From Actinobacteria bacterium UBA5176 (GTDB lineage: Bacteria; Actinomycetota; UBA4738), in assembly GCA_002413305.1 (NCBI GenBank), contig DHWS01000021.1:83147-112560 (forward strand): a stretch of 29,414 nt of DNA, written 5' to 3'. The stretch's first letter is position 1; each line of letters starts with the position of its first letter. Shown here piece by piece: positions 1 through 24,369 of the stretch. The position numbers and the translations under genes were made by a program. Under the pieces are notes generated by a model, which did not search any database, was not told where the DNA came from, and was given only the letters and a program-made list of their open reading frames with translations.

Positions 1-2837
1 TCGACGAGGAGATGGTGTACGAATCGCGGGTCGGTGAGGTGTTCGTCCTCGGCGCGTCGAGCTGGCGGATCGAAGCCATCACGCACGACCGGGTGCTGGT
101 CTCGCCCGCGCCCGGCATGCCCGGGAAGATGCCTTTCTGGCACGGCGACGCACCGGGCCGTCCCGTGGAGCTGGGCCGTGCGCTGGGCGGGTTCCTGCGC
201 GAGGTGTCGGCGCTGAAACCCGCGCAGGCGCGCGTCCGCCTGGTGAAGGCCGGGCTGGACGAGTTCGCCGCCGGCAACCTGGTGGCGTACCTGGACGAGC
301 AGCGCCGATCCACCGGCGTCCTGCCCGACGACCGGACCATCGTCGTGGAGCGTTTCCGGGACGAGCTGGGGGACTGGCGGATCTGCATCCATTCCCCGTT
401 CGGCGCCCGCGTGCACGCGCCGTGGTCGCAGGCGATCGAGGCGCGGGTGCGCGAACGGCTGGGGGTCGAGGTCCAGACCATGTACACCGACGACGGCATC
501 GTCGTGCGTCTCCCCGAGGCCGACGAAGCGCCTCCCCCCGAATCCATCCTGTTCGAGCCGGAGGAGATCGAGGACGTGGTCGTGAACCAGGTCGGCGGGG
601 CGGCGATGTTCGCCAGCCGTTTCCGGGAATGCGCAGCCCGGGCGCTGCTGCTTCCGAGGAGGAGGCCGGGTCAGCGGACGCCGCTGTGGCAGCAGCGCCA
701 GAAGAGCGCCTCGCTCCTCCAGGTCGCCGCGCGGTATGGCTCGTTCCCGATCATCCTCGAGACATATCGCGAATGTCTGCAGGACGTGTTCGACCTGCCG
801 GGGCTGGCCGAACTGATGGCCCAGGTGCGACGGCGCGAGGTGCGGGTGGTCGAAGTGGATACGCCCGTGGCATCGCCGTTCGCCCAATCGCTGCTGTTCG
901 GCTACATCGCGGCATTCATGTACGAAGGAGACGCGCCGCTCGCCGAACGGCGTGCCCAGGCGCTCTCGTTGGACCGAGGGATCCTGGCGGAGCTGCTCGG
1001 CCGCGAGGAGCTTCGGGAGCTGATCGACGCCGAAGCCCTGACCGACCTGGAACTCGAGCTGCAGCGGCTGGCGGACGACCGGAGGATCCGGGACGCCGAC
1101 GCGGTGCACGATGCGCTGCGGACACTCGGCGACCTGACATTGGCGGAAGTCGAAGCGCGCTCGGCGCACCCCACGGAGGCGGCGGGATGGCTGGCCGAGC
1201 TGGAAGCCTCGCACCGCGCGCTGCCTCTGCGGATCGCCGGCGAGGTGCGGTGGGTGGCGATCGAGGACGCGTCCCGGTTCCGAGACGCGCTGGGGACCGC
1301 GTTACCGGTGGGGATCCCGGCGACCTTCCTGGAGGCGGTGGCGGACCCGGTCGGCGACCTGGTGGCCCGTTTCGCACGAACCCACGGCCCGTTCGTGGCC
1401 ACCGACGTGGCGGCGCGACTGGGGCTCGGGGTGGCGGTGGCGCAGCAGGCGCTCGACCGGCTGGAGGCTTCCGGCCGGGTCGTCCAGGGCGAGTTCCGCC
1501 CGGGGGGTTCGGGCCGTGAGTGGGTCGAGGCCGAGGTGCTCCGGCGGCTCCGGCGGCGTTCGCTGGCGGTCCTCCGCCGGGAGGTCGAGCCCGCCCCCCA
1601 GGAGGCGCTGGGGCGCTTCGTCGCGGCGTGGCAGGGCGTGGGCGTGGCGGGGCCGGCTCGGGCCGACCTCGACGCGCTGTACCGGGTGATCGAACAACTC
1701 CAGGGTGCTCCGGTGCCGGCGTCGGCCCTGGAGCGGCAGGTCCTTCCGGCGCGGCTGCTCGGCTATTCGCCGGCGCTCGTTGACGAGCTGTCGGCGTCGG
1801 GCGAGGTGGTGTGGGCGGGAAGCGGCGCCGTCGGCAGCGACGACGGGTGGGTCTCGCTGTATCTGGCCGAGCGGGCTCCGCTGCTCCTGCCCGAGCCGCT
1901 GCCCATCGAGCTGTCTTCGGTCGGCTCGGAGGTCCGCGACGCCCTGGGGCGGCGGGGGGCCATGTTCTTCCGGCAGGTGGTGGAGGAGCTGGGTTCGGCC
2001 GAAGACGTCGAGGTCCTGCTGAGCCTGTGGGAGCTGGTGTGGGCGGGACTGGCCACGAACGACACGCTGGCGCCGCTTCGGGCACTGGTCGGCGGGGCCG
2101 GGCTGAAGCGCGGGAGTTCGCGGTCGCGAGCACGTCCCCGGTCACGAGGGTTCCCGGCGAGGTTCGGCCCGCCCTCCGCAGCCGGGCGATGGAGCCTGCT
2201 GCCCGCCCGTGAGCCGGACTCCACGCGCCGGCTCCACGGCACGGCCGAGCAACTCCTCGCCCGGCACGGCGTCGTGACGCGCGGTGCCGTCATGGCCGAA
2301 CATGTGTCCGGCGGGTTTGCCGGCGTGTACGCCGTCCTGAAGGCGTTCGAGGAGGCCGGGCGGTGCCGACGGGGGTACTTCGTCGAAGGGCTGGGCGGGG
2401 CTCAGTTCGCGCTGCCGGGGGCGGTCGACCGGCTGCGCGGGTTCTCGGAACGGCCGCGATCGCCACAGACGAGCGTGCTCGCCGCGGCGGATCCGGCGAA
2501 CCCGTTCGGGGCGGCGCTGCCCTGGCCCGAGCGGCCAGGGGAGCGGGGGCTCGGCCACCGGCCGGGCCGGAAGGCGGGTGCGGTGGTGGTGCTGGTGGAC
2601 GGGAACCTCGTGATCTACGTGGAGAGGGGCGGCCGGACCCTTCTGACGTTCTCCGACGACCCGGCGGTGGTCCGGCCGGCGGTCGACGCACTGGCGCTGT
2701 CGGTTCGGGACGGAGTGCTCGGCCGGCTCACCGTGGAGCGGGCCGACGGCGAAGGGATCTTCGACACGCCGCTGGCCCTGGCTCTGGCCGAGGTCGGCTT
2801 CCGGCAGTCGACGCGCGGGCTGCGTCTGCGAGGCTGA
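1..2837 (+). CDS. lhr: ATP-dependent helicase Lhr, C-terminal part (5' end outside window)
   Basis: This is the C-terminal ~945 residues of the large helicase-related protein Lhr, a 3'-to-5' ATP-dependent DNA (and RNA:DNA) helicase linked to DNA repair. The frame is already open at base 3 (Asp-Glu-Glu before the first Met at 12), so that ATG is internal, and the RecA-like motor motifs lie upstream of the window. The opening part (VYESRVGEVFVLGASSWRIE) is the beta-barrel that follows the motor in Lhr. Further on are winged-helix-like stretches, for example around residues 450-495 (TDVAARLGLGVAVAQQAL), which fit the tandem winged-helix C-terminal domain of actinobacterial Lhr. The C-terminus (LALALAEVGF...) is typical of the family. 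The protein would be about 1,500 residues when complete. nei follows after 16 bases, the same pairing as lhr-nei in mycobacteria, which suggests co-transcription and a shared repair role. Confidence 0.92.
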   Translation, partial: DEEMVYESRVGEVFVLGASSWRIEAITHDRVLVSPAPGMPGKMPFWHGDAPGRPVELGRALGGFLREVSALKPAQARVRLVKAGLDEFAAGNLVAYLDEQRRSTGVLPDDRTIVVERFRDELGDWRICIHSPFGARVHAPWSQAIEARVRERLGVEVQTMYTDDGIVVRLPEADEAPPPESILFEPEEIEDVVVNQVGGAAMFASRFRECAARALLLPRRRPGQRTPLWQQRQKSASLLQVAARYGSFPIILETYRECLQDVFDLPGLAELMAQVRRREVRVVEVDTPVASPFAQSLLFGYIAAFMYEGDAPLAERRAQALSLDRGILAELLGREELRELIDAEALTDLELELQRLADDRRIRDADAVHDALRTLGDLTLAEVEARSAHPTEAAGWLAELEASHRALPLRIAGEVRWVAIEDASRFRDALGTALPVGIPATFLEAVADPVGDLVARFARTHGPFVATDVAARLGLGVAVAQQALDRLEASGRVVQGEFRPGGSGREWVEAEVLRRLRRRSLAVLRREVEPAPQEALGRFVAAWQGVGVAGPARADLDALYRVIEQLQGAPVPASALERQVLPARLLGYSPALVDELSASGEVVWAGSGAVGSDDGWVSLYLAERAPLLLPEPLPIELSSVGSEVRDALGRRGAMFFRQVVEELGSAEDVEVLLSLWELVWAGLATNDTLAPLRALVGGAGLKRGSSRSRARPRSRGFPARFGPPSAAGRWSLLPAREPDSTRRLHGTAEQLLARHGVVTRGAVMAEHVSGGFAGVYAVLKAFEEAGRCRRGYFVEGLGGAQFALPGAVDRLRGFSERPRSPQTSVLAAADPANPFGAALPWPERPGERGLGHRPGRKAGAVVVLVDGNLVIYVERGGRTLLTFSDDPAVVRPAVDALALSVRDGVLGRLTVERADGEGIFDTPLALALAEVGFRQSTRGLRLRG

Positions 2838-2853: not shown

Positions 2854-3714
2854 GTGCCGGAGGGCGACTCTGTGCTGGTGGCAGGACGGAGGCTCCACGC
2901 CGCACTGGCCGGCCAGCGGGTCGTTCGTAGCGACCTCCGGGTGCCGGCATTCGCCACGTCCGACCTGTCGGGGCAGCTACTCCGGGAGGTCGCTGCCCGG
3001 GGCAAGCATCTGCTGTTCCGGACCGACGGAGGCCTGACCCTCCACACGCACTTCCGGATGGAGGGTGAGTGGCACCTCTACCGGCCCGGTGGGCGCTGGA
3101 AGGGCCCGTCGCACGAGGTGCGGGCGGTGCTCGAGACCGCGCCGTGGGTCGCGGTCGGCTTCCGCCTGGGGATCGTCGAACTGCTCCCCACCTTGCGGGA
3201 GGCCGAGGTCCTTGCGTATCTCGGTCCGGACGTGCTCGGTGCGGACTGGGACCCTGACGAAGCGGTCCGCAGGCTGGGTCTCGACCCGGACCGGGAGATC
3301 GGCGCGGCGCTGATCGATCAGCGGGTGATGGCCGGGCCCGGCAACGTCTACAAATCGGAGGCGTGCTTCCTTCGGGGGCTCGACCCGTGGATGCGGGTGG
3401 GAGACGTGTCGGACCTCGAGGGGCTGGTCGGCTTGGTGAAGCGGCTGATGGAGGCGAACCGCACCACGGGCATGCAGATCACCACCGGCGACCGGCGAGC
3501 GGGTCATGGGCGCTGGGTCTACGGGCGTGGCGGCCGGCCCTGCCGTCGGTGCGGCACCCCGGTCCGACGCCGGGCGCCGGGCGTCGATGGTGATCCGGGT
3601 TCCGAGACCTACGAGCGGGTGACCTACTGGTGCCCGTCGTGCCAGCCGTCCCGGCCGATCAGATCGAGGCGAACCTGGCCAGGGGGAGCCGCGGGCCGCG
3701 ACGCGGCGGACTGA
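2854..3714 (+). CDS. nei: Fpg/Nei-family DNA glycosylase/AP lyase (endonuclease VIII-like)
   Basis: A bifunctional glycosylase and beta/delta lyase that removes oxidised bases in base excision repair. It has 286 residues, the usual size. The GTG start gives the mature N-terminus Pro2-Glu3 (MPEGDS), the catalytic pair of the family; MPEGD is the Nei rather than the Fpg form (usually MPELPE). Lys51 (ARGKHLLF) matches the conserved beta-hairpin lysine. The helix-two-turn-helix segment is around residues 140-210, with Asn164 in GPGNVYKSE. A C4 zinc finger uses Cys230, Cys233, Cys260 and Cys263. A GGGGAAGG run just after the lhr stop can serve as ribosome binding site. The last 56 bases overlap the 3' end of the convergent alkA gene. 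The Nei2 type is favoured by the lhr neighbour, but exact substrate preference cannot be read from sequence. Confidence 0.93.
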   Translation: MPEGDSVLVAGRRLHAALAGQRVVRSDLRVPAFATSDLSGQLLREVAARGKHLLFRTDGGLTLHTHFRMEGEWHLYRPGGRWKGPSHEVRAVLETAPWVAVGFRLGIVELLPTLREAEVLAYLGPDVLGADWDPDEAVRRLGLDPDREIGAALIDQRVMAGPGNVYKSEACFLRGLDPWMRVGDVSDLEGLVGLVKRLMEANRTTGMQITTGDRRAGHGRWVYGRGGRPCRRCGTPVRRRAPGVDGDPGSETYERVTYWCPSCQPSRPIRSRRTWPGGAAGRDAAD

Positions 3715-14597: not shown

Positions 14598-17156
14598 TTA
14601 CCTGGCGACCGGTCGCTCCAGGATGCAGTCCTCCGGGAGCTTGTCCGGCCGGAGCCCCTTGAACGAGGGCGCGCGGAGCTTCCCGACGGCCGTCATCTGC
14701 AGGTATTCGACCTCGCACACCAGGTCCGGGCGGACCCACCGGGCACCCTTCACCTTCCGGAGCTCGGGATCGTCGGCGGGTGGATCGTCCTGTTCGAGTT
14801 CCTTCAGCTTGGCCAGCAGATCGGCGAGCATCCGGTCGGTGAAGCCCGTCCCGACCTGTCCGATCCACCGGAGCTTCCCATCGTCGTACGCCCCGAGCAG
14901 GAGCGCGCCGAACGACGAGCTCCGCCCGCGTTGCCCCGGGGTGCGGCCGAGGATCACGCAGTCCTGCGTCTGCAGGATCTTGATCTTCCGCCAGTCGTCC
15001 GATCGCCTGCCCGGCAGATAGCGGCTCGCGGCCCGCTTCCCGACGATCCCCTCCAGCCCGTGGTCCTTCGCGATCTCGAAGAACCGAACCCCGTCGTCCG
15101 GCACCGAGTAGATCAGCCGCAGGCCCTTGCCCTCGTGCACGATCTCGGTCAGCCGCGATCGCCGATCGGACAACGCGCGCGCCGTGAGGTCCTCCCCATC
15201 CACCCACAGCACGTCGAATGCGACCATCTCGACCGGGATCTGCCGCCTGGCCTTCTCCACGTCGGCCGGCGAGGACAGGTTCATCCGCTGCTGCAGCAGC
15301 TCGAACGACGTCCGCCCCTGCTCGTCGGTGGCCACGATCTCGCCGTCCAGCACCGCGTTCGTTGCCTTCAGGTTGCGGTACACGCGGGCCAACTCCGGAT
15401 ACGTGCGCGACTGGTCGCGCCCGGTCCGGGACACCAGCCGGACCTCCTCGCCGTCCAGGTACAGGAGCGTCCGCACCCCGTCCAGCTTGGGCTCGAACCA
15501 CCATCCCTCGCGGTCGAACGGCGCGTACCCCCCCGCAGCCAGCATCGGCGCGAAGGCGGGCGGCTTCGGCAGCGGTTCCTCCTCGGAGGCGCTGGCCATG
15601 AACACCAGCCAGTCGCCCTTCGTCTTCACCAGGTGGTACTCGCCGTGGTGGCGTTCGCCGTGCAGCCGGAAGCTGACCTTCTGCGGTGTCCACTCGAGCA
15701 GGTTGTACGTCCCTGCGTCCCAGATCTGCACATCCCCCGCTCCGTAGTGGCCCTTGGGGATCGTGCCCTCGAACGACCCGTACTCCATCGGGTGGTCCTC
15801 GGTCTGCACCGCGAGATGACGTTCACCCTTGACCAGCGGGAGCCCCTTCGGCACGGCCCACGAAACCAGGACCCCGTCGCGCTCCAGCCGCAGGTCGTAG
15901 TGCAGCCGCGTGGCGTCATGCCGCTGGATGACGAACGAGTTCCCCCCCGGTGACGGCCCGCCGCCGAATGGTTCGGGCGTGGCCTCCGGGTCGCGCTTCT
16001 GCAGGTACTCGCCGAGCTTTGGGTCGCGGGACCGGGCGATGGCTTCGTCGCTCTGGGAAGGGCGGGACACGCCCTCGTCGCTCGGCGAGGGGCGACCTGC
16101 CTCCACCCGGTGCGACTCGGTGGCGGGAGTGGCGTCGGTCCGTTCGACCCCCACGGCGGCCAGCGCGGGCCCGATGTCCTGCGGCGATTCGAGCACGCCT
16201 CGGAACGGGTCGCCCGGCTCGCGAGCCCACCGCTCCCAAACGGTCCTGATCGTGAAGTCGCCGGGCCGGATGGCGCCTTCTGCCACCTCGTCCCACGTCA
16301 CGGGCGTCGAAACGGTCGCCCCGGGTTCCGGCCGGACGGAGTACACCGCGGCGATGTTCGCCCCCACCCGGTTCATGTTGTGGTCGACGAATACCTGTCC
16401 GGTTCGCTTCCGCACCTCCCACTCCATCGTCACCCGCTTCGGATCCGCCCGCCGGATCAGCTGCCCGATGGCCCCCACGAACTCCCGGATCTGCAGGTAG
16501 GTGAAGCCGTCGGCGATCGGCACGTAGATCTGCATGCCGGTCGCCCCCGATGTCTTCGGGTACGCCGTCAGCCCGAGCTGTGAGCAGGCCGTCCGCACGT
16601 ATCCGGCCACGGCCAGCACGTCCTCATACGTGACCGGCTCGAACGGATCCAGGTCGAAGAACAGGTAATCGGGCGATTCGATCGATCCGCACCGCGAATG
16701 GAGCGGATGAAACTCGATGCAGCCCAGGTTGGCCATGAACAGCAAGCCGGCGACGTCTTCGACCATCAGGTAGTTGATGACGTCGTGCTTCGCCGGCCCC
16801 CACCGACCCTCGGCGGTGCCCGCACTCTGCACGGCGCACCGCGTCATCCAATCCGGGGTGTGCGACGGCGCGTCCTTCTCGTAGAAGAAGGGACCGTGGA
16901 TGCCGTCCGGCATCCGCTTCATCGTCAGCGGACGGCCGGCCAGGTACGGGAGGATGCGCTCGGCGACGTTGAAGTAGTACGCGACCAGGTCGCCCTTGGT
17001 GTAGCTCTCCTCCGGCCAGAACACCTTGTCCAGGTTGGACAGCCGAAGGTTGCGGCCGTCGACAGCCATCCACCACTGTTCGCCGTCCCGCTCGGCGGGG
17101 AGCAGCCGCGGGAACTCCACGGTGAAGGCCGGTCCGGACGCTCGTTTCCTCGGCAT
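14598..17156 (-). CDS. ligD: ATP-dependent DNA ligase LigD (polymerase-phosphoesterase-ligase)
   Basis: The multifunctional ligase of bacterial non-homologous end joining, 852 residues. Domain order is polymerase (~25-330), 3'-phosphoesterase (~385-525), ligase (~530-852), as in mycobacteria. Polymerase: the metal motif DLD is at 168-170 (LFFDLDPFEP) and HPLH at ~150-153. Phosphoesterase: His413, His419, Asp421 and Arg423 lie in RHDATRLHYDLR, with His455 and Tyr459 in DHPMEY; all six known active-site positions are intact. Ligase: the nucleotidyl lysine is Lys557 in EPKLDGVR. A linker near 353-376 has a short repeat (GRPSPSDEGVS, SRPSQSDEAIA). ATG at 17156 was chosen because the polymerase domain begins ~20 residues later. 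It is divergent from ku across 163 bases, so both NHEJ proteins are encoded together. Confidence 0.95.
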   Translation of the reverse strand: MPRKRASGPAFTVEFPRLLPAERDGEQWWMAVDGRNLRLSNLDKVFWPEESYTKGDLVAYYFNVAERILPYLAGRPLTMKRMPDGIHGPFFYEKDAPSHTPDWMTRCAVQSAGTAEGRWGPAKHDVINYLMVEDVAGLLFMANLGCIEFHPLHSRCGSIESPDYLFFDLDPFEPVTYEDVLAVAGYVRTACSQLGLTAYPKTSGATGMQIYVPIADGFTYLQIREFVGAIGQLIRRADPKRVTMEWEVRKRTGQVFVDHNMNRVGANIAAVYSVRPEPGATVSTPVTWDEVAEGAIRPGDFTIRTVWERWAREPGDPFRGVLESPQDIGPALAAVGVERTDATPATESHRVEAGRPSPSDEGVSRPSQSDEAIARSRDPKLGEYLQKRDPEATPEPFGGGPSPGGNSFVIQRHDATRLHYDLRLERDGVLVSWAVPKGLPLVKGERHLAVQTEDHPMEYGSFEGTIPKGHYGAGDVQIWDAGTYNLLEWTPQKVSFRLHGERHHGEYHLVKTKGDWLVFMASASEEEPLPKPPAFAPMLAAGGYAPFDREGWWFEPKLDGVRTLLYLDGEEVRLVSRTGRDQSRTYPELARVYRNLKATNAVLDGEIVATDEQGRTSFELLQQRMNLSSPADVEKARRQIPVEMVAFDVLWVDGEDLTARALSDRRSRLTEIVHEGKGLRLIYSVPDDGVRFFEIAKDHGLEGIVGKRAASRYLPGRRSDDWRKIKILQTQDCVILGRTPGQRGRSSSFGALLLGAYDDGKLRWIGQVGTGFTDRMLADLLAKLKELEQDDPPADDPELRKVKGARWVRPDLVCEVEYLQMTAVGKLRAPSFKGLRPDKLPEDCILERPVAR

Positions 17157-17168
17157 GCTCGACTGGCC

Positions 17169-17174
17169 ATGGTA
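17169..17174 (-). promoter_or_regulatory. Possible ligD -10 box
   Basis: TACCAT on the minus strand, 12 bases before the ligD ATG, fits TANNNT and would give a leader of ~5 bases. The -35 is not clear. No SOS box is seen in the ligD-ku gap. Confidence 0.3.
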
Positions 17175-17255
17175 CCGGCGCGGGCCGGGCAGAATGGGCC
17201 GCGTGTTTCGTGGGAACGATCGATGGGGACTCCCGAGACGAAGGCGGGCCGGCAG

Positions 17256-17261
17256 TACAAT
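17256..17261 (+). promoter_or_regulatory. Possible ku -10 box
   Basis: TACAAT matches TATAAT in five of six positions, in the ligD-ku gap. It would give a leader of ~52 bases, with GGAGG (17304-17308) 11 bases before the ku ATG. A -35 is not evident. Confidence 0.4.
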
Positions 17262-17319
17262 GACCGTCCCCGCCGGCCGCGGGTTGGCGGCGGCGACTTC
17301 CCTGGAGGTGCGACGGACG

Positions 17320-18159
17320 ATGCCAAGGGCCATGTGGAAGGGAGCGATCTCGTTCGGTCTCGTCTCGATCCCGGTCGGGCTCTACCCCGCGACCGAGGAG
17401 AAGACCCTCCGCTTCAACCAGCTCCACGACAAGGACTTCGGGCGCATCAAGTACCAGCGGACGTGCGCCAAGTGCGGCGAAGAGGTCACCTTCGACCATA
17501 TCGTCAAGGGGTACGAGTACGAGAAGGACAAGTACGTCGTCCTGGAGGACGAGGACTTCGACGCCGTGCCGGTCGAATCGTCCCGGGCCATCGATATCCT
17601 CCAGTTCGTGGACCTCGAAGAGATCGACCCGATCTACTTCCAGAAGTCCTACTACCTCGTCCCGGAAGAGACCGGGTTGAAGGCGTACACGCTGCTCCGC
17701 CAAGCCATGAGTGAGGACGGACGGGTTGCCATCGCGAAGATCGCCTTCCGCGACAAGGAGCATCTCGCGGCGCTGCGGTTCAAGGACAACGTGTTCGTCC
17801 TGGAGACGATGTTCTGGCCGGACGAGATCCGGGCCGCCGACTTCGAGGAGCTCGACAAGAAGGTCAACGTCCGGCTCCAGGAGATCCAGATGGCCAAGAG
17901 CCTGATCGAGAGCCTGACCGACGAGTTCAAGCCCGAGCAGTTCCGAGACGAATACCGCGAAGCGCTGCTCGGCATCATCGGGAAGAAGGTGTCGGGCGAG
18001 GAGATCGAAGTGATCCCCGAAGCGGAGCCGACCAAGGTTGTCGACCTGATGGAGGCGCTGAAGGCGTCGGTCGCGGCGCAGAAACAGAAGAAACAGGCGG
18101 CCCCCCAGGCCAAGTCCAAGAAGTCCACGGCGCGGCCGAAGAAAGCCGCCGCAGGGTAG
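17320..18159 (+). CDS. ku: Ku DNA-end-binding protein
   Basis: The homodimeric ring protein that binds double-strand ends and recruits LigD. It has 279 residues, typical for bacterial Ku. It opens MPRAMWKGAISFGLVSIPV, the family hallmark, followed by YPATEEKTLRFNQLHDKD and a zinc-like pair CAKCGEE. The core runs to about residue 230 (FRDEYREALLGII). The C-terminal tail (~250-279) is rich in Lys, Gln and Ala (QKQKKQAAP, SKKSTARPKKAAAG), the basic extension that in mycobacterial and Streptomyces Ku affects DNA binding and LigD stimulation. ATG at 17320 matches the family start. It is divergent from ligD, and glnB follows after 18 bases on the same strand. Confidence 0.96.
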   Translation: MPRAMWKGAISFGLVSIPVGLYPATEEKTLRFNQLHDKDFGRIKYQRTCAKCGEEVTFDHIVKGYEYEKDKYVVLEDEDFDAVPVESSRAIDILQFVDLEEIDPIYFQKSYYLVPEETGLKAYTLLRQAMSEDGRVAIAKIAFRDKEHLAALRFKDNVFVLETMFWPDEIRAADFEELDKKVNVRLQEIQMAKSLIESLTDEFKPEQFRDEYREALLGIIGKKVSGEEIEVIPEAEPTKVVDLMEALKASVAAQKQKKQAAPQAKSKKSTARPKKAAAG

Positions 18160-18524: not shown

Positions 18525-20996
18525 GTGCCCCCGACGCGCGTGACCCCGGTGACCCAGGACCTCGCTTCGTCGCTCCGTGCGCTCGACGCCGAACCGCTCG
18601 CCGGCCGGTCGGGGGTCGAGCTGGCCAGCCGGCGCGCGGAGGCGTTCGACTTGGCCATCACCGCCGGACTGGCGCCGCTGGAGGGCATGGCCCTCGTGGC
18701 GATCGGCGGCTACGGCCGGTCCGAGATGGCGCCGGGGTCGGACATCGATCTCCTGCTCGTCCACGAGCCCGGGCTGGAGGCCGGGGCGGAGGAGGTCTTC
18801 GCCGGGGTGCTCTACCCGCTGTGGAACGCCGGGATCCGGGTGGGGCATTCCGTACGAACCGTCGAGCAGTGCCGCGCCGAGAGCATGGCCCACCTCGATG
18901 CGCTGACCGCCCTGCTTGACGCCCGGTTGCTGGCGGGCGAGCCGGCGCTCGCGGAGCAGGCCCGAACCGCCGCTGCCGGGATCGTGCACGAAGACCCGGC
19001 GGAGTTCGTCGATGGACTCCGCATGTGGCGGATCGAACGGCGGGCTCGGGCAGGAGCGCTGGCCGAGTCCCAGGAGCCGGACCTCAAGGAGGCTCTGGGG
19101 GGCCTTCGGGACCTGCACCTGCTCGGGTGGCTGGCCGCACTGGAGGCCCACGAACTGCTGCGACCGTCCGAACGGCGATGGGCCGGCGCTGCGCTGGACT
19201 ACTTCTTGCTCGTCCGGACCGCCCTCCACCGCCGGGCGGCCGGCTCGTCGAACTCGGTGGTGGCGGACCAGCAGCCGGCGATCGCCGACGCGCTCGGTGT
19301 GGTGGGGGAGGAGTCGTGGGAGTCGCGCGACGTCCTCATGCGGACGCTGTTCGAACACGGCCGCCGGGCGAACGCGGTGGCCACAGCGGTCCTGGAGCGC
19401 GCGGCCCGCGCGGTGGGTTCGACCTCACGCCACGAGCTCCACGCCGAGGCGACCGAGGCCGTCCTGCTGTCCGCGTTCGAGCTCTTCGCCCGGGTGGCGC
19501 ACGAGGGCGGGATGCCGGCGGTCGAGGAGCTCGATCGCGTGGAGGCGCTGGTTCCTTCGGAGCCGCCGGCAACCTGGCCGCCGGGCTCGGTGGAGGCCTT
19601 CGTCACGATGCTGGCGTCGGGAGAGGGCGGGGTCGAGGCGTTGGAGTGGCTCGATGCCCTCGGCTTCCTGCCGGCGGTGCTGCCGGAGTGGCGGGGGGTG
19701 CGGGGCCGGCCGCAGCGCGACCCCTACCATCGCTACCCCGCGGACGTGCACCTGCTTCGCACCGCGGCGGAGATGGCGCTGCTCCTGTACCGGCCGGACG
19801 AACCGTTCGCCGCGGAGGCCGCCGCGCAGATCGAGGACGTTCGGGCGCCCCTCTTCGGCGGGGTGCTGCACGACATCGGGAAGGTCGGCCGAGGGTCGCA
19901 CCTCGTGGAGGGCGAGCGCATCGCGGCCGGCGCGGTGCGGCGGATCGGGCTGGACGAAGCCGTGGCGGATGACGTGCTGTTCTTGGTCCGCGAGCACCTA
20001 CTTCTCTCCGACACCGCGACCCGACGGAACCTCCAGGACGAGGACCTCATCCTCCGGGTGGCGGCCAGGATCGGGAACCCACGCCGCCTGGCCATGCTGT
20101 ACCTCCTGACCATGGCCGACGCGGCGGCGACCGGGCCCAGCGCCTCGACACCCTGGCGCGTTGCGCTGGTCCGCGAGCTAACCGGGAAGGTCGGCCGGGC
20201 GTTCGACCGTGGGCTCATGGATCCCGGCCAGGCCGGCCGGCTCGCGCAGGCGGAGGCGGCGATCCGAGGAGCGCTTGGAAGCGAACCTCCGGCCCGGGTC
20301 GAACGCTTCCTGGCCATGATGCCGCCCGGCTATCTGTTGTGGGCGCACCCCCACGAGGCACTGGGGCACCTGGGGCTCATCGACCCGCCGCCGGCGCCCG
20401 ATGAGGTACGGCACGTCGTCCAGCAGGGACGGGCTCCGGGCACGCGGTTGCTGGTGGTCGGCGCGCGCGACCGGCTCGGACTGCTGGCGGCGTTGGCGGG
20501 AGCGATGACCCTGTCTCGCCTGTCGATCCTCACCGCGCAGGCATTCACCACGGAGGAAGGCCTCGCGGTGGACGCCTTCGACGTGCGGTTGGCGGCCGGA
20601 GACCTGGCCGGCCCGATCGACGACGCGCGGTGGGTGCGCTTCGAACGCGAAGCGCGGGAAGCGCTGGACGACCTCCCGGCGGTGGCGGAGCGGATCCGCC
20701 GGCTCCGGTCGCACTATCGTTCCCCAGTCGCCGACGTCCCGGTCCACGTGCACACGGACGACGAGGCCTCGGATTTCTTCTCTGTGGTCGAGGTCGGCGC
20801 GCCGGACCGGATCGGGCTGTTGTTCGACCTGACCAGGACGTTCGCCTCGCACGGGGTGGACGTGCACTCCGCGAAGGTGGCCACGTACGGGCCGAGGGTG
20901 GTCGACGTGTTCTACGTGACCGTCGCCGGGGAGAAGCTGCGAGGGGAAGCGAGTGCGCTGGAGGAGGCGCTGGCCCGGGCCGGAGCCGAACCTTAG
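18525..20996 (+). CDS. glnD: [Protein-PII] nucleotidylyltransferase GlnD
   Basis: The bifunctional enzyme that adds and removes a nucleotidyl group on P-II according to glutamine level. It has 823 residues. Nucleotidyltransferase domain: GGYGRSEMAPGSDIDLLLVH at 61-80, with metal-binding Asp73 and Asp75. HD hydrolase domain: GVLHDIGKVGRGSH near 445-460. Two ACT domains bind glutamine: about 637-705 (TRLLVVGARDRLGLLAALAG) and about 750-820 (VVEVGAPDRIGLLFDLTRTF). All four domains of GlnD are present in the usual order. GTG at 18525 is eight bases after glnB; a second in-frame GTG at 18540 is an alternative start. The stop overlaps the convergent DUF72 stop by four bases. Confidence 0.95.
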   Translation: MPPTRVTPVTQDLASSLRALDAEPLAGRSGVELASRRAEAFDLAITAGLAPLEGMALVAIGGYGRSEMAPGSDIDLLLVHEPGLEAGAEEVFAGVLYPLWNAGIRVGHSVRTVEQCRAESMAHLDALTALLDARLLAGEPALAEQARTAAAGIVHEDPAEFVDGLRMWRIERRARAGALAESQEPDLKEALGGLRDLHLLGWLAALEAHELLRPSERRWAGAALDYFLLVRTALHRRAAGSSNSVVADQQPAIADALGVVGEESWESRDVLMRTLFEHGRRANAVATAVLERAARAVGSTSRHELHAEATEAVLLSAFELFARVAHEGGMPAVEELDRVEALVPSEPPATWPPGSVEAFVTMLASGEGGVEALEWLDALGFLPAVLPEWRGVRGRPQRDPYHRYPADVHLLRTAAEMALLLYRPDEPFAAEAAAQIEDVRAPLFGGVLHDIGKVGRGSHLVEGERIAAGAVRRIGLDEAVADDVLFLVREHLLLSDTATRRNLQDEDLILRVAARIGNPRRLAMLYLLTMADAAATGPSASTPWRVALVRELTGKVGRAFDRGLMDPGQAGRLAQAEAAIRGALGSEPPARVERFLAMMPPGYLLWAHPHEALGHLGLIDPPPAPDEVRHVVQQGRAPGTRLLVVGARDRLGLLAALAGAMTLSRLSILTAQAFTTEEGLAVDAFDVRLAAGDLAGPIDDARWVRFEREAREALDDLPAVAERIRRLRSHYRSPVADVPVHVHTDDEASDFFSVVEVGAPDRIGLLFDLTRTFASHGVDVHSAKVATYGPRVVDVFYVTVAGEKLRGEASALEEALARAGAEP

Positions 20997-21718
20997 GATC
21001 GCGGGGGCTCAGCCGCGATGAAGGCGCGCATCCGCTCGGCCAGGATCGGTCCGGCGCCCTTGTCCTCGTGCTTGAAGAAGCAGAACACGTCCGCGCCCTC
21101 GGCGAGCGCCGGACCGATCCGGTCGGCCCAGCCTCCCAGCTCCTGATCCGTGTACGCCATCTTGCGAAGGCGTAGGTAGACGAAGGGGCTGGCCGTCAGC
21201 GGCGCTTGCGGGGCGGGCTGGTCGTCCGTCTCGGCCACGCACCAAGCCGCTCCCTGCGACGCCAGGACGGGTTTCGCCTCGACCCACGAAGGATGGCGAA
21301 ACTCGAACGCGTAGCGATGTGTGGGCGGCAGGTACGCCAGGAAGGACTCGATCAGTGTGCGGTCATAGGGCAGGTTCGGCGGGCACTGGAACAGGATCGG
21401 GCCGAGCCGGTCGCCGAGTGTCCGGGCCCGCTCCAGGAACGCCGAGACGGCCTCGTCCGCGTCCTTCAACCGCAGCCAGTGCGTGATCCGCTGGTGTGCC
21501 TTCAGGACGAACCGGAACGTCTCGGGAGTCGCGTCTCGCCAGGTGACCAGCGTCTTCTCGGCCGGCTGCTGGCGGAAGGTGTAGTTGATCTCGACCGACG
21601 GGAAGCGTTCGGCGTAGAACGGCAGCATCTCTTTCTGCCGGAGCGTGGGGGGATAGAAGGGTCCCTTCCATTCGTCGTAGGCGAACCCCGACGTCCCGAG
21701 GTAGAGCGTCCCGGCCAT
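20993..21718 (-). CDS. DUF72 (YecE-family) protein
   Basis: A TIM-barrel protein of unknown function, 241 residues. Family signatures: LYLGTSGFAYDEWKGPFYP near the N-terminus (residues ~5-23), PSVEINYTFRQQP, FVLKAHQRITH, ILFQCPPNL, and YAFEFRHPSW. These are the conserved acidic, Tyr and His-rich surfaces of YecE. An upstream ATG at 21736 is in frame, but 21718 is preferred because the family N-terminus starts there and GGAG lies just before it. It is divergent from the alpha/beta hydrolase over 58 bases and overlaps glnD tail to tail by four bases. No function can be assigned from the sequence. Confidence 0.88.
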   Translation of the reverse strand: MAGTLYLGTSGFAYDEWKGPFYPPTLRQKEMLPFYAERFPSVEINYTFRQQPAEKTLVTWRDATPETFRFVLKAHQRITHWLRLKDADEAVSAFLERARTLGDRLGPILFQCPPNLPYDRTLIESFLAYLPPTHRYAFEFRHPSWVEAKPVLASQGAAWCVAETDDQPAPQAPLTASPFVYLRLRKMAYTDQELGGWADRIGPALAEGADVFCFFKHEDKGAGPILAERMRAFIAAEPPRS

Positions 21719-21776
21719 CGCTCCAGATTCTCCCATCGAAGACGGCCGGTGCGTCCTGCTGCAATCATCGCTCTGG

Positions 21777-22736: not shown

Positions 22737-23843
22737 TCAGAGCATCGAAAGCTGTTCGGCCCGCTGTCCATCACGTCCGCGCCCTGCCGACGGTCGCACG
22801 TTCTTCCGGCTGGCCGATCGTCCCGAAGCGGATCGATTCCCGTTCCCCACCCGCCGCGTGTCCCGCGGTGCCGCGCGCCCGATCCCGAACCGCCTGGCGA
22901 GCTCCTGGACCCGCCCGGTGATCTCCGCCTGGTACGCGTTCGGGGCGTAGGCGCTTCGGCCGTACAGCCGCTCGTACCGCGGCACGAGGGACGGGTGGTG
23001 CTCGCCGAGCCAGCCCATGAACCACTCCCGGGCGCCGGGCCGAAGATGCAGCACGATCGGCGCGAGGTGGGTCGCCCCGGCCTCCGCGATGGCCCTGACC
23101 GTGGCCGTGAGGTGTGCGGGCGAATCGGTCAGGAACGGGATGATGGGGGCCATCAGCACCCCGCAGGGAACGCCGGCCTCGTTCAGCGTCCGGCACACCT
23201 CGAGCCGCTTCTGCGGAGCCGGGGTCCCGGGCTCGAGCGAGCGCCACACGTCCCGGTCGACGAACCCCACGCTGACGTTCGTGCCGATGTCGGCCACCTG
23301 CGCGCATGCTTGGAGAAGGTCGACGTCCCGGAGGATGAGCGAGCCCTTCGTCAGGATCGAGAAGGGATTGGCGGTGTCGAGGAGCACTGAGAGGATGCCG
23401 CGCATGAGCTGGTAGCGCCCCTCGGCCCGCTGGTAGGGGTCGACGTTGGTGCCCATGGCGATGTGTCCGCCTCCCCACGACGTGGCGGCCAGCTCCCTGC
23501 GCAGGAGCTCCTCGGCGTTGACCTTCACCACGATCTGGGAGTTGAAGTCCTCCCCGGAGTCCAGGTCGAGGAACGTGTGCGTGTTCCGGGCGAAGCAGTA
23601 GAAGCACGCGTGGGTGCACCCCCGGTACGGGTTGATCGTCCACCGGAACGGGACGCGAGAGGCCTCGGGCACCCGGTTGATGATCGACCGGGCCCGGACC
23701 TCGTAGAACGTGATCCCGCGGAACTCGGGCGTGTCGAAGGTTCGAACCACGGCGCCCTGGCCGAACAGCGAGGCGGTGAGCCGTGGGTCTCGTTCGGGCT
23801 CGACGATCTTCAGGTTGTCCCAACGCACGGCGAGACGCACCAT
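22737..23843 (-). CDS. Rv2578c-family radical SAM protein (SplB-like)
   Basis: A radical SAM enzyme of 368 residues related to the SplB (spore photoproduct lyase) group, COG1533. The 4Fe-4S site is CTHACFYC: Cys76, Cys80 and Cys83 as CxxxCxxC. Flanking markers are RWTINPYRGC, FARNTHTFLDLDSGEDF, GTNVDPYQRAEGRYQLMRGI and PFSILTKGSLILRD, all typical of the Rv2578c family. The tail (~325-368) is Arg- and Ser-rich and ends QLSML. ATG at 23843 was chosen; the internal GTG in AVRWDN is possible, as mycobacterial relatives begin near RWDN. A perfect LexA box lies five bases before the ATG, so it should be repressed by LexA and induced by DNA damage. Its reaction is unknown; repair of a DNA lesion is a reasonable inference. 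Confidence 0.9.
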   Translation of the reverse strand: MVRLAVRWDNLKIVEPERDPRLTASLFGQGAVVRTFDTPEFRGITFYEVRARSIINRVPEASRVPFRWTINPYRGCTHACFYCFARNTHTFLDLDSGEDFNSQIVVKVNAEELLRRELAATSWGGGHIAMGTNVDPYQRAEGRYQLMRGILSVLLDTANPFSILTKGSLILRDVDLLQACAQVADIGTNVSVGFVDRDVWRSLEPGTPAPQKRLEVCRTLNEAGVPCGVLMAPIIPFLTDSPAHLTATVRAIAEAGATHLAPIVLHLRPGAREWFMGWLGEHHPSLVPRYERLYGRSAYAPNAYQAEITGRVQELARRFGIGRAAPRDTRRVGNGNRSASGRSASRKNVRPSAGRGRDGQRAEQLSML

Positions 23844-23848
23844 GGTAC

Positions 23849-23864
23849 TCGAACACCTGTTCGA
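23849..23864. promoter_or_regulatory. SOS box (LexA binding site)
   Basis: TCGAACACCTGTTCGA is a perfect inverted repeat with 7-base arms, identical to the actinobacterial LexA consensus TCGAAC-N4-GTTCGA. It lies five bases upstream of the radical SAM ATG. A -10-like TGCAAT (23869-23864, minus strand) abuts it, so bound LexA would cover the start of transcription. I saw no second perfect site in the window. Confidence 0.88.
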
Positions 23865-23925
23865 TTGCACATCCCTCTCACCCGGCTCCACCCGGCTCCT
23901 TAGTAGGTTCCAGTACGCCGGCCTG

Positions 23926-23931
23926 TATGAT
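23926..23931 (+). promoter_or_regulatory. Possible -10 box for the HicB-like/HTH gene
   Basis: TATGAT, preceded by TG, matches the -10 consensus well and lies 33 bases before the GTG at 23965. The -35 is weak. The SOS box is 62 bases upstream, probably too far to control this promoter. Confidence 0.3.
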
Positions 23932-23964
23932 TCCGTCACTCCGAGCGCAGCGGGATCGATCGAC

Positions 23965-24369
23965 GTGCAGATCAGAGCTTCCTTGAGGCAGGGACCGGAC
24001 GGCGGGTGGGTGGCCGAGACGGAAGGCGACGTCCGGGTCCGGGCCGCCGGGCCGACGCCGGACGCGTGCCTGGCGAGCCTGGGACGGTGCGTGGAGGTCG
24101 GTTTGGATGGCCGAACCGGCCCGGTGACCATCCTGGTCGAGGTGACGCCGGTGCTTGCCGGCGTGGCCGAGGCGGCCGAGATCATGCGGTGGGACAAGCG
24201 TCGCGTCGTGACCTACATCGACCGGGGGGCGTTCCCACAGCCGATCCAGGCCCTCGCCTCCGGCCGCGTGTGGCGCCGGGCGGACGTCGAGCGCTTCGCC
24301 GTTCACTGGCGCTCCCGCCTGGCGGCCCGGGCCCGCCGGGACGCTCCGACGCCGCCGCCCGTCATATGA
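23965..24369 (+). CDS. HicB-like domain fused to a helix-turn-helix domain
   Basis: A 134-residue protein in two parts. Residues ~2-45 (IRASLRQGPDGGWVAETEG, then AGPTPDACLASLGRCVEV) look like the HicB antitoxin fold, with the usual GGWVAE strand and the TPDACLASL helix. Residues ~66-115 (VAEAAEIMRWDKRRVVTYI, RGAFPQPI, GRVWRRADVERF) look like an excisionase/MerR-type DNA-binding domain. The C-terminus is Arg- and Pro-rich. No HicA toxin is adjacent, so it may be a free-standing regulator rather than a toxin-antitoxin part. GTG at 23965 was chosen because the HicB strand begins right after it; no strong ribosome site is seen. Its stop overlaps the phosphatase ATG (ATGA). Domain assignment is by eye. 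Confidence 0.72.
   Translation: MQIRASLRQGPDGGWVAETEGDVRVRAAGPTPDACLASLGRCVEVGLDGRTGPVTILVEVTPVLAGVAEAAEIMRWDKRRVVTYIDRGAFPQPIQALASGRVWRRADVERFAVHWRSRLAARARRDAPTPPPVI

Follow-up and report, generated by a model that had tools for sequence, protein, structure and literature searches.

The 29,414-nucleotide stretch of DNA analyzed here (the window), from contig DHWS01000021.1 of Actinobacteria bacterium UBA5176, carries a LexA/SOS operator at the start of a minus-strand gene for an Rv2578c-family radical S-adenosylmethionine (SAM) enzyme. The operator is genuine, and most of the related actinobacterial genes that were examined have kept it; from these sequences there is little doubt that LexA controls the gene. 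The product has a predicted fold closest to spore photoproduct lyase (SPL) and ends in a putative binding motif for the sliding clamp DnaN. On balance, we favor an SOS-induced radical SAM enzyme that is recruited by the clamp and processes a DNA lesion, probably not the spore photoproduct; our confidence in this composite is held down because LexA control, docking and a lesion substrate go together in it.

Operator, gene start and putative promoter in the window

The site TCGAACACCTGTTCGA had been described in an earlier note as a perfect dyad; its coordinates are exact and its 7-bp arms (TCGAACA/TGTTCGA) are perfect, but the central CC is not palindromic. Scanning the window with up to three mismatches gave five box matches against 0.29 expected, two of which are the TCGAACACCTGTTCGA site read on both strands, while the remaining three each carry three mismatches. 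In the host genome (a 2.99-Mb draft, 81% complete, in 176 contigs), TCGAACRNNYGTTCGA occurs in five copies and CGAACN4GTTCG at 28 sites, and the reversed-pattern control gave 0 in both cases. Two LexA DNA-binding domains were found in the genome, a strong one at C22:33964-34158 (90.6 bits) and a weak one that scores 25.4 bits. Two boxes lie upstream of the strong lexA on contig C22, the core of one of them, CGAACAGGTGTTCG, being the 14-bp core of the window site on the opposite strand, and recA (C22:23353-24141) has TCGAACACGTGTTCGA upstream, with 56 nucleotides (nt) from core to ATG. Further boxes precede a dnaE2-like gene of the PHP/Pol III alpha type, which has a Y-family polymerase close by on its own strand, and genes for a UvrD helicase, DnaB and DUF222-HNH proteins. 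The window box is of the operator type that the host genome uses at its SOS genes. Gene context was inspected at 21 of the 27 other CGAACN4GTTCG sites, with genes named at a few, and no SOS gene was seen beside many of these 21; therefore, a fraction of the 28 genomic sites may be due to chance.

Three LexA-type boxes of the host genome are noted for the genes beside them: (i) the box at G000:C31:1528 (L143) precedes a small protein whose weak match to a double zinc ribbon stays under the Pfam cut-off; (ii) that at G000:C25:1107 (L142) precedes a DUF222-HNH protein (13E12-like); and (iii) that at G000:C9:39830 (L139) contains the first ATG of a metallo-beta-lactamase-fold protein encoded divergently from dnaE2.

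The window protein passes the cut-off of the NCBIfam equivalog rSAM_Rv2578c (NF038135; 495.4 versus 430 bits), which bears out the family identity proposed earlier. The placement of the box five bases before an ATG is likewise literally correct, but this ATG (23841-23843) is probably not the gene start, because 41 of the 51 rows in an alignment of homologues are empty before residue 6, and residue 6 is M, V or L in 50 of the 51. Ten rows, including that of the window protein, have predicted N-terminal extensions of other kinds. The closest homologue (P0002) has an ATG at the codon matching GTG 23828 and another ATG five residues earlier, and the RW start is present at 72 of the 106 loci of the wider set described below. 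The alignment points to GTG 23828, 20 nt after the box, as the likely start.

The rejected ATG probably lies inside a -10-like element. In 62 of 98 orthologous loci, picked for having a box, the box has TANNNT at its 3' end, as against 0.3% of 2271 background windows; in 49, a TTG hexamer is present no more than 14 nt to its 5' side (background, 4.1%). The first in-frame start codon follows the box at a median distance of 10 nt in these loci; therefore, many of the orthologue messages are probably short-leader or leaderless. A sigma-70 consensus scan of 23700-24100 gave no promoter match, and a clear -35 element was not seen in the window, so that the -10 element is argued from the orthologues only.

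Conservation of the box and published LexA links

A family search in 396 genomes of the phylum gave 173 matches at an E value of 0.001 or less, 44 of them above the equivalog cut-off. We studied 117 loci, 30 + 80 from the genome search and 7 from named contigs (by a one-protein scan), of which 106 lie outside a PA0069-like group (label f14). Matches under about 224 bits were set aside, together with fragments or contig-edge matches of G277, G231, G384 and G269 and the G117 match, which has an internal stop. For the interval -120 to +60 around the expected start, four of the 106 loci were dropped for too short an upstream sequence, and the exact GAACN4GTTC was found in 89 of the 102 that remain. 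Shuffled sequences gave a mean of 0.27 and a maximum of 2 (100 sets); windows inside genes gave 0/509 and windows farther upstream 2/414. A looser count (at least 10 of 12 consensus bases) was passed by 82 of the 102 loci, with 1.06 in shuffles. When the interval was widened to +110, a count that covers 104 loci (L073 and L123 dropped), 94 had the exact box and 6 more had 10-11 of the 12 bases.

By family label, the exact box is present in 24 of 26 and a near box in the other two. The earlier note had surmised that the link between box and gene might be conserved across distant actinobacteria, and had named the lack of a LexA box at most orthologues, along with no induction by DNA damage, as what would refute its reading; the counts above, over loci and family labels alike, uphold the surmise and go against the first half of that refutation. 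The intergenic region is common to divergent reading frames, so that the box might serve the plus-strand gene (GTG 23965) or be fortuitous, but the exact box stays at the start of the radical SAM gene in 24 of the 26 labels and sits close to the first in-frame start codon, and we regard such an assignment as extremely unlikely.

Named carriers of the box include Streptomyces (two), Micromonospora, Blastococcus, Streptosporangiales and an unclassified Actinomycetota contig. Label f28 (13 loci; 10 exact boxes, 3 near boxes) includes a mycobacterium, as the protein of its locus L027 is identical to one named Mycolicibacterium celeriflavum. At Streptomyces-type loci (label f22, presumably Streptomyces, plus the two named contigs), GGGAACN4GTTCTA occurs in 12 of 13, about 30 nt before the ATG in most. 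In the PA0069-like group (11 loci, L128-L138; genomes such as G076, G011 and G041), no box of the GAACN4GTTC type was found. Six genomes of this group barely use the operator (0-7 sites versus 1-8 for the reversed control), and their LexA domains above the cut-off score 38-50 bits, versus 79-106 in three other families; therefore, the absence of the box in this group serves as a check on the method and not as evidence against SOS control there. A dyad search for an alternative operator in the group returned repeats that resemble coding sequence, and these were rejected.

The LexA link to this gene is not new, because it is already in print. In Streptomyces venezuelae, the radical SAM gene vnz_31145, which from its locus numbering is probably SVEN_6313, is reported to be induced 19.97-fold with mitomycin C and to give a LexA chromatin immunoprecipitation signal, with a box, TCGACCGTTCGCTC, at -61 (PMC9380542). 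As the 14-mer TCGACCGTTCGCTC differs from GGGAACN4GTTCTA, this operator assignment may deserve a second look. An analysis that took in M. tuberculosis and six other species places "a radical SAM protein" in the core LexA regulon of Gram-positive bacteria, in a passage that leaves the species carrying the gene unstated (PMC7739468). The splB gene is described as predicted to be SOS regulated in alpha- and betaproteobacteria (PMC3323433) and, as COG1533, as part of the SOS networks of Bacteroidetes (PMC8565304). A literature search for PA0069 together with LexA found no paper. The proposal that the gene encodes an undescribed damage-inducible repair enzyme is therefore kept in part: a role in the damage response is likely, but LexA control of such a gene had been described in these four papers.

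The window gene resembles the Rv2578c-family genes of Streptomyces (NF038135; SAM40697_5543/SVEN_6313, probably vnz_31145) in family score, (M/V/L)RW start, CX3CX2C motif and GTN(V/T)D.YQRAEG segment, and vnz_31145 is itself reported as LexA bound and mitomycin induced (PMC9380542). It differs in that its operator is the full TCGAAC...GTTCGA, 20 nt from the start, and in its host, which belongs to an uncultured actinobacterial family. With the splB genes of alpha- and betaproteobacteria and Bacteroidetes it shares the character of an SplB-type radical SAM gene called SOS regulated; the clamp-type tail of the window protein goes unmentioned in the splB passages of these two reports (PMC3323433, PMC8565304). 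The Streptomyces ambofaciens gene SAM40697_5543 is reported to be the attachment site of prophage Samy (PMC12924846), so that, in its native host, this prophage disrupts what is probably an SOS gene.

Fold, C-terminal tail and candidate substrate

The predicted fold is closest to SPL, about 5 Z units above all others among the matches listed; a single-sequence search of the PDB found no relative. The window protein resembles SplB (PDB 4FHC-4FHG, 4K9R, 4RH0) in overall predicted fold, cluster motif, the EPGT...AP segment and an equivalent of Tyr96, and differs from it in lacking equivalents of Cys140 and Tyr98, in its SOS box and perhaps in the clamp-type tail. It scores 14.9 bits on the SPL family model (TIGR04070), against a cut-off of 400. 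Tyr98 is replaced by Phe84 (Table 1), and no conserved Cys lies between residues 84 and 179, where Cys140 would be expected: the commonest column (96) has Cys in 8 of 51 rows, and the window protein has none in this interval. A Cys elsewhere, such as the invariant Cys227, might serve as a spatial substitute for Cys140. The earlier placement in the photoproduct-lyase group thus holds for the fold, but not for the family model or for Cys140 and Tyr98.

Because the Cys140/Tyr98 relay of SPL is missing, the substrate is probably not the spore photoproduct. In Bacillus subtilis SPL, the C141A mutant is as inactive in spores as cluster mutants, while about one-third of the rate is left in vitro (PMC3742179). 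Together with the family score, this makes a genuine SPL or thymine-dimer reversal enzyme under SOS control very unlikely, even with the shared fold. An SOS-induced radical SAM enzyme that acts instead on RNA, free nucleotides or protein, for instance in a viperin-like anti-phage defence, also appears unlikely, though less so than the former: SPL stands well above all other folds among the matches listed, and the clamp-type tail and the company of dnaE2, recA and uvrD point to DNA.

The pentapeptide at the C-terminus of the window protein, QLSML, deviates from the clamp consensus QL(S/D)LF by Met and Leu in place of Leu and Phe; the ending in most orthologues is QLxLL, QPTLF or QLSLF. According to a review, the pentapeptide by which bacterial proteins bind the clamp is a C-terminal QL(S/D)LF and tolerates variation (PMC9690074). 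Q364 is nearly invariant in the 51-row alignment. In proteins of 104 loci (L127, whose translated frame lacked the cluster motif, and a locus with no stop codon were left out), Q[LMPAV]x[LMI][FLIMV] occurs within the last 12 residues in 72, versus 0.36 expected from shuffled tails, and forms the final five residues in 66 of these 72; with hexapeptide and PTLF-type forms added, the count rises to 88 versus 1.64 expected. The tail is also present in 116 of 121 database homologues among the matches listed (P0001-P0121, including the window protein), in 115 of 120 for a mycobacterial query (114 ending in QPTLF) and in 119 of 120 for a Paracoccus query (85 ending in QLSLF), the rows inside each of these sets being close relatives of one another. 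All 11 proteins of the PA0069-like group f14 pass a wider pattern, Qxx[LMIV][FLWYM]. The host genome has a dnaN gene. The host's own DinB (C9:35686), taken as a yardstick for the motif, shows no clear C-terminal pentapeptide. Judged by titles and abstract openings among the matches listed, no paper on a clamp tail in Rv2578c, PA0069 or SplB proteins was found, the review PMC8266832, which came up with both sets of terms, standing outside this check.

Operator and tail were also followed into more distant relatives, the named PA0069-type ones being taken from plasmid records, with 18 of 60 hits among the matches listed examined. The 650 nt upstream of the match contain GTTCN7GTTC in eight of nine alphaproteobacterial loci (mean of 0.056 in shuffles, which moved two-base blocks and not true dinucleotides; 0/9 inside genes). 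These sites fit the reported Caulobacter LexA consensus, (T/A)TGTTC(N6)TGTTC (PMC13384398), with TGTTC as the second half in six of the eight. The Methylobacterium bullatum site is far from the match (-603), and Pseudorhodobacter has no such site within 650 nt upstream. All nine proteins end in Qxx[LM][FL], and seven pass the stricter pattern; the endings are QLSLF, QLTMF (two), QLSLL (two), QLRLL, QLRLF, QYSLF and QGELF. An Aeromonas caviae copy has CTGTATATATAAACAG, which fits CTGT-N8-ACAG, the LexA box of Escherichia coli, and its protein ends in EQLRLF. A Nonomuraea plasmid copy has the exact actinobacterial box and ends in QLRLL, and an Arthrobacter plasmid copy has only GAACATACATTC and ends in QEPLF. 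No box of the tested types was found in six distant relatives (Gemmatirosa, Monoglobus, Bacteroides mobile pair B, Paenibacillus, Haloarcula and Roseburia); the first five fail the tail pattern (Gemmatirosa ends in AQLSLGI), and Roseburia passes the wide one (QQSLFD). The PA0069 family (NF033668) of Pseudomonadota is related to the window protein and shares the QLSLF-type tail, with the GTTCN7GTTC box of its alphaproteobacterial loci, but the window protein scores 247.7 bits on its model, under the cut-off of 360. Since LexA regulation and tail are both kept while the operator differs between phyla, selection on both is suggested.

The tail might nevertheless serve another end, for example as a degron or in binding a protein that is not DnaN, with LexA regulation unaffected. 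Short motifs are easily over-read, the relaxed pentapeptide is missing in 27 of 105 loci (one, L127, probably read in the wrong frame), and the wide pattern is also matched in Roseburia, which is only distantly related and lacks a box. Weighed against this, the motif agrees with the published consensus and forms the very end of the protein, beyond a linker predicted to be disordered, and QLSLF, QPTLF and QLALL recur in distant groups whose linkers have diverged. We therefore give this alternative only a small share of probability, and consider it quite probable, from the conservation of the motif, that the tail docks the enzyme on DnaN. If docking holds, a DNA lesion is highly probable as the substrate, and it is less likely without docking.

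Combining these elements, the window gene would be a LexA-repressed member of the SOS regulon, in which LexA bound at 23849-23864 would cover the promoter; in the orthologues, the operator stands just 5' of the -10 region and often overlaps it. DNA damage would lead to RecA-stimulated LexA cleavage and free the promoter. The product, a radical SAM enzyme with the SPL fold and a flexible C-terminal tail ending in the clamp-binding pentapeptide, would then use this tail to dock on DnaN at forks that are stalled or gapped, in the manner of translesion polymerases, and there a 5'-deoxyadenosyl radical would attack the damaged nucleotide, either for direct lesion reversal or for trimming. The sequences and the model directly show the box and its conservation, the family, the predicted fold, the lack of the SPL residues and the tail motif, from which we infer LexA binding at the window box, clamp binding, DNA as the substrate and the reaction.

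A number of observations weigh against this proposal. The looser 10-of-12-base count is also passed by 10/509 and 13/414 control windows, no box was found in L057 (Agromyces), L062 or L067, and the only one in L087 is at -591. Even the widest tail pattern is absent from 16 of the 104 proteins, including both of label f41 and all four of f45, although some of these end in near forms such as QLKLC and QLTLT; therefore, clamp docking is not essential everywhere. A shared fold alone does not fix a substrate, and SPL mutants without the Cys or the Tyr retain some in vitro activity (PMC3742179), so that the absence of these residues is compatible with an SPL-like reaction. For the Streptomyces gene, it is reported that inactivation carries no significant fitness cost, that the neighbors are unrelated to repair, that the modeled protein deviates from SplB by a root-mean-square deviation of >4 Å and that the link to DNA repair is speculative (PMC12924846).

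Window features, inteins and implications

Table 1. Features located in the window (pLDDT, predicted local distance difference test; aa, amino acids)
Feature	Position	Strand	Basis or remark
LexA/SOS operator TCGAACACCTGTTCGA	23849..23864	none	Exact sequence match, genome counts, core shared with lexA box
-10-like TACCAT (putative)	23842..23847	-	By eye and orthologue pattern; overlaps ATG 23841-23843
Rv2578c-family radical SAM gene, likely GTG start (VRWDN)	22737..23828	-	Family score, alignment; ATG reading 22737-23843, 368 aa
CX3CX2C [4Fe-4S]/SAM motif, CTHACFYC, residues 76-83	23595..23618	-	C76, C80, C83 in 51/51 alignment rows
Phe84, at place of SPL Tyr98	23592..23594	-	F in 50/51 rows, Y in 1
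C-terminal linker and tail (residues 325-368), poorly conserved and predicted disordered	22740..22871	-	Model pLDDT under 50
Putative beta-clamp-binding pentapeptide QLSML, residues 364-368, extreme C-terminus	22740..22754	-	Sequence and conservation
DUF72 gene (203 bits)	20993-21736	-	Downstream of radical SAM gene, one plus-strand gene between
LigD with primase-polymerase, phosphoesterase and ligase domains	14598-17333	-	Domain search
Fpg/Nei-like glycosylase	2854-3714	+	N-terminal domain above, H2TH just below Pfam cut-off
Lhr-type helicase, C-terminal part	12-2837	+	Domain search

The Lhr-type, Fpg/Nei-like and LigD genes make up a repair-rich stretch in the window (Table 1). As a separate observation on the family, an apparent intein lies at the cluster motif in at least 23 of the 117 loci, where the insertion point was seen (L055, L056, L058, L062, L065, L067, L073, L075, L076, L079, L081, L092, L094, L095, L097, L100, L101, L106, L108, L115, L117, L119 and L134). 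In L056, which was read through, the intein starts where CX3CX2C would have its third Cys, a position that the +1 Cys of the intein fills after splicing; therefore, the Fe-S site would form only after splicing. NCBIfam NF038136 names intein-bearing proteins of this kind.

Lists of SOS-regulated genes have included SplB-like ones since at least 2012 (PMC3323433), and an assigned reaction for them was not found in the literature covered. The clamp-type tail points to a specific site of action, DnaN at replication forks, that can be tested cheaply and decisively, and, with the Cys/Tyr relay missing, substrates other than the spore photoproduct should be tried first. More tentatively, and with somewhat less than even confidence, the Rv2578c and PA0069 proteins may together form a widespread class of clamp-tethered, SOS-induced radical SAM enzymes that repair or trim an unnamed DNA lesion at forks, with LexA control and tail kept together in Actinomycetota and Pseudomonadota despite a complete change of operator. 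If true, radical chemistry would join the fork-associated damage responses of actinobacteria and proteobacteria.
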